From Saccharopolyspora erythraea NRRL 2338 (GTDB taxonomy: Bacteria > Actinomycetota > Actinomycetes > Mycobacteriales > Pseudonocardiaceae): DNA of 64,000 nt. Below the pieces are notes generated by a model, which did not search any database, was not told the origin of the DNA, and worked only from the letters and a program-made list of their open reading frames with translations. Positions 61,142 to 64,000 of this stretch are shown here, piece after piece (position 1 is the stretch's first letter; every line of letters begins with the position of its first letter). Position numbers and translations under genes: made by a program. The stretch lies in contig NC_009142.1 of NCBI RefSeq assembly GCF_000062885.1, positions 1,973,584-2,037,583 of the forward strand, given 5' to 3'.

Positions 61142-61684
61142 TCAGTCCACCAGCGCCTCGGTCCACGCCCGGCGCAGGATCTCGTCGACGGTCTCCCGCG
61201 GCGTCTGGTGCGAGGTGTCCAGCCACAGCCCGAGTGGCGGGGTCCGCTCCCGCAGAACGGCGTCGAGCTCGTGGACGGCCCAGTCGTCGTAGGCGACCTT
61301 GCCGCGGCCCGCCTCCCGCTCGGCGACGGCCTCCACCGAGGGCGCGAGCACCACGACAAGCAGTGGCCGGTTGCGGACGGCGCGCACCATGTCGGCCAGG
61401 TGCTCGCCGAGCACGACGTCCTGCACGACCACGGTGAAGCCGGCGTCGAAGTAGGCGTCGGCGGTGGCGGCGGTCAGCTCGTGGCGCAGGCGCAGCTGGC
61501 GCAGCGCCTCCTGCGACGGTGAGCCCGTCATCTCCTCCCTGCCGCCGACGACCATCCGGCGGAACACGTCACCGCGGACGTGCGCCGAACGGGTGAGGCG
61601 CTCGGCGACGCCCTGCGCGACGGTCGACTTGCCCGCCGCCTGGATGCCGGTGAGCAGCAGTATTGCCTGGTCAGAGATGTTCAC
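61142..61684 (-). CDS. AAA-type kinase/phosphotransferase-like protein
   Basis: A 180-residue P-loop protein. The Walker A motif is LTGIQAAGKSTVAQGVAERL near residue 10, HVRGDVFRRMVVGGREEM near 35 could bind the phosphate acceptor, and TVVVQDVVLGEHLADMV near 85 is a Walker B-like strand. This is the small-molecule kinase type (chloramphenicol or shikimate kinase-like). The acceptor is unknown. The GTG at 61682-61684 is chosen over the longer frame. It is divergent from the cysteine-rich peptide gene. Confidence 0.82.
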   Translation of the reverse strand: MNISDQAILLLTGIQAAGKSTVAQGVAERLTRSAHVRGDVFRRMVVGGREEMTGSPSQEALRQLRLRHELTAATADAYFDAGFTVVVQDVVLGEHLADMVRAVRNRPLLVVVLAPSVEAVAEREAGRGKVAYDDWAVHELDAVLRERTPPLGLWLDTSHQTPRETVDEILRRAWTEALVD

Positions 61685-61774
61685 GGGATGCGCTCCGGAG
61701 GATCGTGGTCGATCACATCCTGGCACCGGTGAACCGCGGCCGTCGCCTGCTTTTCGCCCTCGCGGTCACTCATA

Positions 61775-61785
61775 GCGATATTCGC
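61775..61785. promoter_or_regulatory. short palindrome upstream of the Cys-rich peptide gene
   Basis: GCGATATTCGC, arms GCGA/TCGC around TAT. It is 117 bases before the peptide start and 91 bases before the AAA gene start, so it may be an operator shared by both. The evidence is only the symmetry and position. Confidence 0.3.
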
Positions 61786-61901
61786 ATGTCGACCTTTCAG
61801 CACACTGGCGGACAACCACCGCTCGCGCGGCGGTGTCGCCGCCGGAGCCCCCGGCAGGACCATCGCTACTGCTGGCATTCGTCACACCGGGAGGCAGACC
61901 C

Positions 61902-62006
61902 ATGGTGCACACCGAGCGCGAGACCACCCCGGCCCAGGCTGGCGGCTGCAGCTGTTGCGGAAGCTGCTCCGGCCCGTCCTGCGGCTGTTGCTCGAGCTGC
62001 CGCTGA
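61902..62006 (+). CDS. 34-residue cysteine-rich peptide (metallothionein-like or RiPP precursor-like)
   Basis: The ATG at 61902 follows a perfect GGGAGG at 61889-61894 with a 7-base spacer. The first 15 residues are polar (MVHTERETTPAQAGG). The last 19 contain eight cysteines, at 16, 18, 19, 22, 27, 29, 30 and 33, forming C-x-C-C-x2-C twice, 11 residues apart. The rest is Gly, Ser, Pro and a final Arg. This resembles a thiolate metal-binding peptide such as a small metallothionein, or a leader plus core of a modified peptide. A strong hairpin (62017-62054) ends the transcript. The function is inferred. Confidence 0.7.
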   Translation: MVHTERETTPAQAGGCSCCGSCSGPSCGCCSSCR

Positions 62007-62016
62007 GCGGCGGAAA

Positions 62017-62054
62017 GCCTGCCCGGGGTGATTGCGGGATCACCCCGGGCAGGC
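62017..62054. terminator. bidirectional hairpin terminator
   Basis: A 16-bp perfect stem GCCTGCCCGGGGTGAT with its complement, loop TGCGGG. It follows the Cys-rich peptide gene by 10 bases and overlaps the stop codon of the convergent lipoprotein gene (62040). Confidence 0.85.
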
Positions 62055-63614
62055 CATGCCCTCGGTGGGGACCACGCCGTCGACCAGGAACCTGGTGACC
62101 GCGGTGGTGGCGCACTCGGAGCGGCCGACCGCGCCGTGCCCGGCGCCCAGCCAGCGCAGCACGACACCCGACGGCAGCTGCTCGGCCATGTGATCGCTGC
62201 CCAGCGCGGGCACCGCCGCGTCGTGCGCGGTGCTGATCACCGGCACGGGTGGCAGCCCCGCGGTGCGCGGTACCGGTAGCGCCTGCTGCGGTACCGGCCA
62301 GAGCCCGCACCAGACCAGCCGTTGCGCGAAGACGCCCCCGAACAGCGGGAACCGCGCGCTCCAGTCCGCGGCGATCTCGGTGCTGCGCTGCGGCGGCACG
62401 CGCAGCGTCGTGTCGTTGCAGCTGGTGATCATGTCGCCGTCGAGCCGGGCGGGTGCCGGCGGCGTGCTTTCGACCAGCGGCGCGACCATGGCCGCGACCG
62501 CGCTGCCGTCGCCGCGGTTCGCGGCGGCCAGCGCTTGCGCGAGCCCGGGCCAGGCGTCGCGGTCCCGCAGACCCAGCAGCACCGCCTGGGTGATCTTGCC
62601 CGCCGTCACAGGAGTCCCGGGCAGCGGCGCCGCGCGGGTCCGCTCCACGAGGTCGGAGACCGTCCGGCGCGGGTCGGGTCCGAGCGGGCAGCCGCGCGCG
62701 GCGCAGTCGGCGGCGAAGCGGTCGAACACCTGCTCCGCGCCCTGCGCCTGCGCCTCGCCCTGGGCGATCGCGTCGAGCTGCGGGTCGGGCGCGCCGTCGA
62801 GGACCATCCGGCCCACGCTCTCCGGGAAGCGCTCGGCGAAGGTGGTCAGCACCCTGGCGGCCTCGCCGCGGCCGACGGCGTGCAGCTTCGGCACGCCGAG
62901 CTCCAGCCGCAGCTCCTCCAGGTCGGCGGCGGTGCGCCAGGTGTCGTAGGCCTGCAACCGCTCGTCGAGGGACAGCAGGCACTGCTGGCTGGCGTCGCGG
63001 ACGGAGTCGACGAGCCGGTCCAGCGTCGTGCGGTCGGTGGCCCTGGGGTCGAAGCCGAGGATGGCGTTGCGCCGCTCGATCGGGATGCAGTCGGCGGAGT
63101 CGGACTCGCCGGTGCCCCGGCGGTCCATGCCGATCACGCGGAAGGTGCGCAGGAGCTCCGGAGGAAGCCGCAGCGCCATCCGCGCGGCGAAGGCCGTGCC
63201 CGGCTCGCCGCCGATGTCACCGAGCACCACCAGCGGGATCCGGCCGGAGCCCGCGCTGATCACGGCGCTGCGCGCGGTGCCGCGGCCGGGAGCCTCCGGC
63301 GAGTCGAGCGTGGTGGGCAGCCGGGAGCAGGTGAAGGTCATCCCCGCGGGCAGCGCGGGCACGCCGAGTTCGCCGCGGGTCTGCTCGGTGCAGTCGTCCC
63401 ACGTCAGCGACTCCTGCGCCGGCGGGCCCAGCGGCGGCACCGGCGCCGGTCCCGGCGCCTGCGGCTGCGGGGTGACCTGCTGCTCGGCGTCGCGGTAGGC
63501 CACCGGCGGTCGCTGCGATGGCCCGGCCGAGCACGCCGCGACGACCAGCAGCAGCAACGGCAGCAGGAGCACCCCGACCCGGTGAGCGGTGCGCCGGGGG
63601 GTGCTGCGCGGCAC
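62040..63614 (-). CDS. TAP-like alpha/beta hydrolase lipoprotein lacking the nucleophile
   Basis: A 524-residue secreted lipoprotein. The signal peptide has LLLPLLLLVVAACSA with a lipobox Cys near residue 28. The hydrolase domain has MDRRGTGESDSADC near 190 and SVGRMVLDGAPDP near 280. The C-terminal TAP-like part has VISTAHDAAVP and LGAGHGAVGRSECATTAV, with the acid and His. The nucleophile elbow, usually G-x-S-x-G, reads VGRGEAAR, so no Ser is at that place. The oxyanion-hole region GGPGGSG is replaced by GDIGGEPG. It is therefore probably inactive as a peptidase. GTG at 63612-63614 with AGGAG. Confidence 0.87.
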   Translation of the reverse strand: MPRSTPRRTAHRVGVLLLPLLLLVVAACSAGPSQRPPVAYRDAEQQVTPQPQAPGPAPVPPLGPPAQESLTWDDCTEQTRGELGVPALPAGMTFTCSRLPTTLDSPEAPGRGTARSAVISAGSGRIPLVVLGDIGGEPGTAFAARMALRLPPELLRTFRVIGMDRRGTGESDSADCIPIERRNAILGFDPRATDRTTLDRLVDSVRDASQQCLLSLDERLQAYDTWRTAADLEELRLELGVPKLHAVGRGEAARVLTTFAERFPESVGRMVLDGAPDPQLDAIAQGEAQAQGAEQVFDRFAADCAARGCPLGPDPRRTVSDLVERTRAAPLPGTPVTAGKITQAVLLGLRDRDAWPGLAQALAAANRGDGSAVAAMVAPLVESTPPAPARLDGDMITSCNDTTLRVPPQRSTEIAADWSARFPLFGGVFAQRLVWCGLWPVPQQALPVPRTAGLPPVPVISTAHDAAVPALGSDHMAEQLPSGVVLRWLGAGHGAVGRSECATTAVTRFLVDGVVPTEGMACPG

Positions 63615-63807
63615 GGGTACTCCTCGTCGTGGATGCACGGGATGCGAACTGCGGTCAGCATCGCATGATCCACGTGAGACCGCGGTGAGGGGCTGTTGGG
63701 ACGCCCGAGGGCGGTGGTGAGGCACAGCCCTCAAAGCGGTTCGACCAATCGCCGTGCGCCGGTAACGTGCGCACCCGTACCGGCGAGGGAAGGGAGCCTG
63801 CGCGGTC

Positions 63808-64000
63808 ATGGTCATGGCGCACATGGACGGGGCGTCGTCGCGGGGACGGCCGGTGGTGGGGCTGGAGCAGACCGCCGCCCGCGCCTTCGGGGCCGTCCCG
63901 CCGCCGGTGCTGGTCCTGCTGGGCATCGTGAGCCTGCAGGTCGGTGCCGCCTTCGCCAAGCAGATGTTCGCCGTCGCCGGTTCGTCCGGCGTGGTGGCGC
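63808..64000 (+). CDS. EamA-family transporter (partial)
   Basis: Start of a drug/metabolite transporter-type protein. Three in-frame ATG codons lie at 63808, 63814 and 63823, and GGGAG at 63793 fits the first. Residues VPPPVLVLLGIVSLQVGAAF form the first helix, then AKQMFAVAGSSGVVA. This matches the N-terminus of RhtA-like threonine/homoserine exporters. The window ends inside the gene, so the rest cannot be judged. Confidence 0.7.
   Translation, partial: MVMAHMDGASSRGRPVVGLEQTAARAFGAVPPPVLVLLGIVSLQVGAAFAKQMFAVAGSSGVVA

Follow-up and report, generated by a model that had tools for sequence, protein, structure and literature searches.

The short open reading frame described here, from the erythromycin producer Saccharopolyspora erythraea, most probably encodes a cytosolic mini-metallothionein that would bind Cu(I), or Zn/Cd, within a single thiolate cluster, a reading to which a probability of roughly 0.7 is given on the basis of sequence comparison. 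The frame is real, and it belongs to a peptide family which is conserved across one family of soil actinomycetes, the Pseudonocardiaceae (GTDB lineage of the source; the host's family in what follows), and which seems to be undescribed so far. The analyzed window is the whole stretch of 64,000 nucleotides corresponding to bases 1973584–2037583 of a single-contig genome of 8,212,805 bases. The features within it that are relevant to the peptide gene are as follows.

61142–61726, minus strand: P-loop kinase-like gene, with profile matches to AAA_33 (E 1.8e-10) and to a chloramphenicol-phosphotransferase-like family (PF07931, E 3e-9)
61771–61788, no strand assigned: candidate regulator site picked out by eye, the palindrome-like box CATAGCGATATTCGCATG, with look-alikes at varying distance in a number of relatives
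61819–61863, plus strand: putative promoter consisting of CCGCTCG (61819–61825), GCGGTGTC (61830–61837), a 20-nt spacer after GGTGTC and a −10-like GACCAT (61858–61863), the same architecture being found at 68 of 80 loci
61889–61894, plus strand: ribosome binding site GGGAGG, 7 nt 5' of the ATG, from the sequence and its alignment with relatives
61902–62006, plus strand: open reading frame for the 34-residue peptide, with an 18-residue, eight-Cys core at codons 16–33, from translation, homologues and core conservation
62017–62054, no strand assigned: 17-bp hairpin directly 3' of the stop codon, a possible terminator in common with the convergent gene, from folding and with no T-run

The peptide and its reading frame

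Translation of 61902–62006 gives MVHTERETTPAQAGGCSCCGSCSGPSCGCCSSCR, 34 residues followed by a stop codon, and bears out the duplicated C-x-C-C-x2-C motif for which the frame had been singled out in the earlier note. The final 19 residues contain eight Cys in two such blocks, the starts of which are 11 residues apart, so that the core follows the pattern C-x-C-C-x2-C-x4-C-x-C-C-x2-C. The good ribosome binding site claimed for the gene is likewise present, with GGGAGG lying 7 nt ahead of the ATG. Across all six frames, the window has a single instance of the exact eight-Cys spacing, and none of its 60 order-5 Markov copies has any. Cys density by itself is less distinctive: stretches of 19 residues contain up to 9 Cys in the window, and 8 were reached in one of the 60 copies.

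Distribution of the family

A profile built from 22 cores (A1) was found to have a match at E<=1e-3 in 221 of the 390 genomes of the host's family, representing 38 of its 46 genera; the profiles used were partly made from genomes that were later searched, and matches in those genomes are therefore expected. Six of the weakest A1 matches were inspected (L144–L149; E 2e-4 to 9e-4) and all look real. A second profile in which variant forms were included (A2) detected nine extra genomes of genus g11 that A1 had missed, and the figure of 221 is thus probably an underestimate. With the single peptide as query, 370 of the 390 genomes showed a match at the loose limit of E<=1, many of these being weak. 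Approximately 43% of the genomes of the family have no A1 match, among them all those of genus g31 (0 of 62), and the peptide is therefore dispensable. Genus g26 (Lentzea) has two profile matches in 24 of 24 genomes. It should also be noted that in one Lentzea genome (G240) the two peptide matches sit far apart, possibly reflecting a division of labour. The 14 loci that could be named belong to Saccharopolyspora, Lentzea, Longimycelium and Saccharomonospora.

Searches at higher ranks returned next to nothing beyond this family. At class level two of 394 genomes matched, both of them within the host's family; at order level there were matches in 66 of 397 genomes, 64 in the host's family and the other two being marginal partial matches (E 0.003 and 0.007); and at phylum level the one match in 296 genomes was the host genome itself. 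This near-empty outcome is unaffected by the overlap between profiles and searched genomes, and a diverged relative might be missed by it. No match was obtained in plasmid and phage records with the MVHTERETTPAQAGGCSCCGSCSGPSCGCCSSCR peptide alone as tblastn query.

Conservation of the core

The core was aligned over 88 loci, 30 of which came from the single-peptide search and 58 from a set of 60 that had been fetched, with L092 and L093 dropped as second copies. All eight Cys were invariant in 88 of 88 loci, an invariance that is in part due to ascertainment as the loci were gathered by similarity, which does not build in the synonymous changes or the promoter. Gly13 was also found in all 88 loci, and the Gly and the Pro of the linker in 87 each. 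The remaining core positions vary, mainly among Ser, Gly, Thr, Asn, Ala, Lys and Pro between the Cys, and 49 distinct 18-residue cores are represented. For the 78 distinct core DNA sequences a pN/pS of 0.25 was calculated, with a mean heterozygosity of 0.19, 0.18 and 0.44 at codon positions 1, 2 and 3, respectively, and with Cys codons divided into 514 TGC and 110 TGT. Retention of the eight Cys together with synonymous change, which the earlier note had proposed to look for in homologues, was thus observed in these similarity-selected loci.

In a set of 165 loci, which counts some places more than once, the exact eight-Cys motif was present in 150. Of the 15 others, 13 have His at the position of Cys1, one reads C-x-C-x-C in its first half, and the last (L003) is a DNA match that is unrelated. 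The 13 His-for-Cys1 loci (L144, L146–L152, L157, L159, L160, L162 and L163) belong without exception to genus g11, in which they represent 12 genomes, and have retained the other seven Cys. A swap of Cys for His at a single position with seven Cys retained is a pattern permitted by metal ligation. The variant leans toward Zn over Cu(I) and keeps Zn(II) possible as the metal. In part of this g11 sub-family the N-terminus is basic and looks amphipathic, as in MIKRLLKVVLRHGCC, and the peptide ends in CH or CK.

A common promoter architecture

To compare upstream regions, 158 anchored loci were reduced to 128 distinct stretches and, after removal of redundancy, to 80. A two-block motif search of these 80 regions gave a single architecture with 18.0 bits per sequence versus 10.2–10.6 in five shuffled sets, which were plain shuffles run with 6 restarts as against 15 for the real data. 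A strict rule written on these same loci ([AG]G[CT]GGT, then NANNNT 19 or 20 nt past GGTNNN) was obeyed by 68 of the 80. In 200 resampled sets it was obeyed by 2.0 loci on average and by 7 at most, and of 240 control stretches located farther upstream three conformed. All six of the His-variant loci in the promoter set obey the rule. A TCnCnC box is found 5' of the two-block motif, its three C being nearly invariant in 48 aligned rows.

A promoter model (R1) was made from 48 rows chosen from the 68 loci fitting the rule. Its best match in the host genome was the peptide promoter (G000:C1:2035402–2035448), a sequence that is itself among the 48. When eight genomes were scanned, four of which had contributed to the model, the peptide promoter ranked top in seven; for the four genomes outside the model it was top in three, the exception being G080 (E 0.207 versus 0.071 for the best match). 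No common downstream gene was seen when 23 of the R1 runners-up were checked by eye, and no co-regulated gene group with a metal theme emerged from the genome scans. The promoter site appears to be linked to the peptide gene alone.

No match to a sigma-70 consensus was found at the promoter, and this together with the long spacer suggests an activator, predicted from the sequence to act on the unusual −35 region. To our knowledge, the promoter resembles no metal-regulator site. Look-alikes of the box CATAGCGATATTCGCATG were noticed 5' of the gene in a number of relatives, for example CGCATTGCAATGCG (L007) and ACATAGCGAAATTCGCATA (L140), at differing distance. In L054 and L091 the promoter spacer contains GGTAAGGCTTACC, which we take to resemble half of the actinobacterial iron box and which could mean iron control in both lineages.

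Neighboring genes

The genes adjacent to the peptide were compared in 61 neighbourhoods, with crude gene calls (GC3-based) of which a few look like antisense artefacts. The sole widespread neighbour is a convergent alpha/beta hydrolase gene, the copy in the window matching PF08386/PF00561; 29 of the 61 loci, from 15 of 30 genera, have it no more than 700 nt away. Every other neighbour cluster was confined to 10 genera or fewer within about 4 kb. Elsewhere, for example, genus g26 has a thioesterase-like gene as a local neighbour, and g29, g30 and g34 have LuxR-type and FMN-reductase genes. In L037–L039, L059, L060, L084 and L085 the peptide gene was observed to lie between chlorite-dismutase-like and/or SelR (msrB-like) genes and the hydrolase gene, possibly an older location. 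Ten neighbour proteins were scanned against Pfam (hydrolase, LigD polymerase, EamA, SelR, DUF6319, chlorite dismutase, LuxR-type, FMN reductase, thioesterase and one unmatched) and no metal-handling gene was among them. The peptide gene seems to be free-standing, with no kept partner. The divergent P-loop kinase-like gene which the earlier note had reported was recovered as AAA_33 and chloramphenicol-phosphotransferase-like by profile match. As a partner it was rejected, its cluster occurring in two of the 61 neighbourhoods and in genera g1 and g36 only, with the kinase start apparently also present, at the margin of the alignment, in further g36 loci.

It might be supposed that a peptide with such dense vicinal Cys serves as a thiol redox buffer, a sulfur carrier or a zinc-delivery peptide instead of a detoxifying metallothionein, and the proximity of some loci to SelR (msrB-like) and chlorite-dismutase-like genes would suit this role. 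However, these two clusters are found in just 8 and 5 of the 30 genera, respectively, and the swap of Cys for His preserves metal ligation, not dithiol chemistry. Such a role is regarded as unlikely.

Peptide length and the possibility of a modified precursor

Lengths were called by a rule in which the start chosen is the nearest one that has a purine-rich stretch 5' of it, a choice biased to short forms. Under this rule the shortest peptide among 80 non-redundant loci has 20 residues and the longest 36; 28 of the 80 have 20–22 residues and two are uncalled, and the calls for L136 and L144 are doubtful, with a better start farther upstream. Many members are nearly core only, with M, MG, MS or MH ahead of the core. 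The short form, a 21-mer, is firm for L089, the entire open frame of which is 27 residues. It is also firm for L146, in which the frame is closed by a stop 10 codons 5' of the core and the only usual start codon from there to the core is the ATG of the 20-mer.

The earlier note had left open whether the peptide was a metallothionein or a precursor with a modified Cys-rich core. As a RiPP precursor, its Cys/Ser/Thr/Gly-rich C-terminus would be converted to azoles or thioether rings and its N-terminus would be the leader; the core is akin in composition to the cores of azole peptides, and the N-terminal part is more variable in the members of 30–34 residues. The 28 members of 20–22 residues are, however, essentially leaderless under a start rule that favors the nearest start, with L146 as the firm case, and no RiPP enzyme was detected among the ten scanned neighbour proteins. 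Due to this lack of room for a leader and of a modification enzyme in those neighbours, the precursor half of the proposal is weakened and now seems quite improbable. The metallothionein half is the better supported one, through the kept Cys, the swap of Cys for His, the free-standing gene and the common promoter.

The downstream hairpin and the following gene

The hairpin 3' of the peptide gene comprises 17 bp (−44.5 kcal/mol, z −5.67). The gene had been credited with its own terminator, and a strong hairpin is indeed in place, but no T-run terminator was found 3' of the frame, and the convergent hydrolase ORF (62040–63959, minus strand) supplies the right arm with its 3' end. The hairpin is thus common to both genes and not the peptide's own.

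Polycysteine short ORFs have been described in mycobacteria (Canestrari et al., 2020, as cited in an excerpt of PMC9031893), which like the present frame are short, Cys-rich and actinobacterial and which, according to that excerpt, act on an operon. With its eight Cys codons the peptide could similarly be a Cys-responsive leader peptide, or attenuator. Here, however, 45 of the 61 neighbourhoods have a convergent gene as the first one downstream and 16 have one on the same strand, these 16 genes falling in 14 different clusters. The conservation of residues other than Cys (Gly-Pro and Gly13) and the strong hairpin 3' of the stop codon in the window also speak against this explanation, which is a weak one and very unlikely to hold. 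A chance Cys-rich frame in GC-rich DNA, with no gene at all, would be in keeping with the shortness of the frame and the lack of a match to Pfam and NCBIfam models, but is scarcely credible because of the conservation in 38 genera, the synonymous change and the common promoter.

Comparison with known metallothioneins

Scans of nine members each against Pfam and NCBIfam gave no match to the peptides, nor did a PDB sequence search with one member, such very short and compositionally biased queries being hard cases for these searches. Rfam gave nothing at gathering score on the window. No sequence match to a known metallothionein family was found. The open-licence literature, outside which subscription journals mostly lie, held no account of the peptide family that could be found, and in a paper on Streptomyces small ORFs (PMC10654065) the words cysteine, metal and Saccharopolyspora are absent.

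Of the known systems, the fungal Cu-thioneins (Neurospora crassa and Agaricus bisporus MT) are likewise very short and Cys-dense. According to an excerpt of PMC4755600, these 7-Cys units of 26 residues follow X2-[CXC]-X5-[CXC]-X3-[CXC]-X2-C-X3, hold about five Cu(I) and were formerly called the shortest metallothioneins. The peptides described here have 20–36 residues and eight Cys in two C-x-C-C-x2-C blocks, and the aligned core does not fit the fungal (family 8) pattern; common descent is not claimed. If confirmed, the short members of the present family would undercut the 26-residue fungal proteins. MymT of mycobacteria is also small, Cys-rich and actinobacterial, binds Cu(I) and was discovered as a non-annotated small ORF (excerpt of PMC7558416). 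It differs by its size of 4.9 kDa, and its motif is said in an excerpt of PMC10612145 to be absent from other bacterial metallothioneins. The SmtA-type prokaryotic metallothioneins (PF02069) are metal-thiolate proteins whose ligands are Cys and some His (excerpt of PMC7387436), as would be the case here, but PF02069 matched none of nine family members. It also had no match in the host genome, while the positive control matched in Synechococcus elongatus.

Proposed function

A metallothionein fits best with the eight thiols in 18 residues, the small spacers, the Gly-Pro hinge between two similar halves, the His swap, the missing room for a leader in the short forms, the absence of a kept partner gene and the gene's own promoter. 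The peptide is small and Cys-rich, with CxC and CC clusters (eight Cys in 18–19 residues), and its ligand positions are either kept (88 of 88 loci) or replaced by His (13 loci in 12 genomes). In the mechanism that we infer, expression would be turned on, in response to an inducer, by an activator at the unusual −35 region, and the peptide would be translated in the cytosol from a single-gene transcript. The two C-x-C-C-x2-C halves, joined by the Gly-Pro turn, would close on several metal ions to give one thiolate cluster in which the ligands are eight Cys, or seven Cys plus a His. Cu(I) would be the likeliest and first-choice metal, in analogy to the 7-Cys fungal Cu-thioneins and MymT, with Zn(II)/Cd(II) next. 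The physiological role of the peptide would then be to buffer or detoxify metal on demand.

The broader proposal is that of a new metallothionein family limited to one actinomycete family, with the shortest natural members (20–21 residues, a naked eight-ligand core) and a dedicated activator-type promoter at one gene; for this combination the odds are put at about even. Were it true, nature would have provided a minimal one-cluster metallothionein, complete with its own series of Cys/His swaps.

Very short Cys-rich ORFs tend to escape gene calling and to fall below the limits of similarity searches, and bacterial metallothioneins may for this reason be undercounted. The peptide is small enough to be made entirely by chemical synthesis, and both a Cys/His swap and forms of 20 residues occur naturally. 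The family would therefore be a test bed for the minimum number of residues needed for a working metal cluster and for the determinants of Cu versus Zn binding, and it also supplies a promoter that apparently serves one gene.
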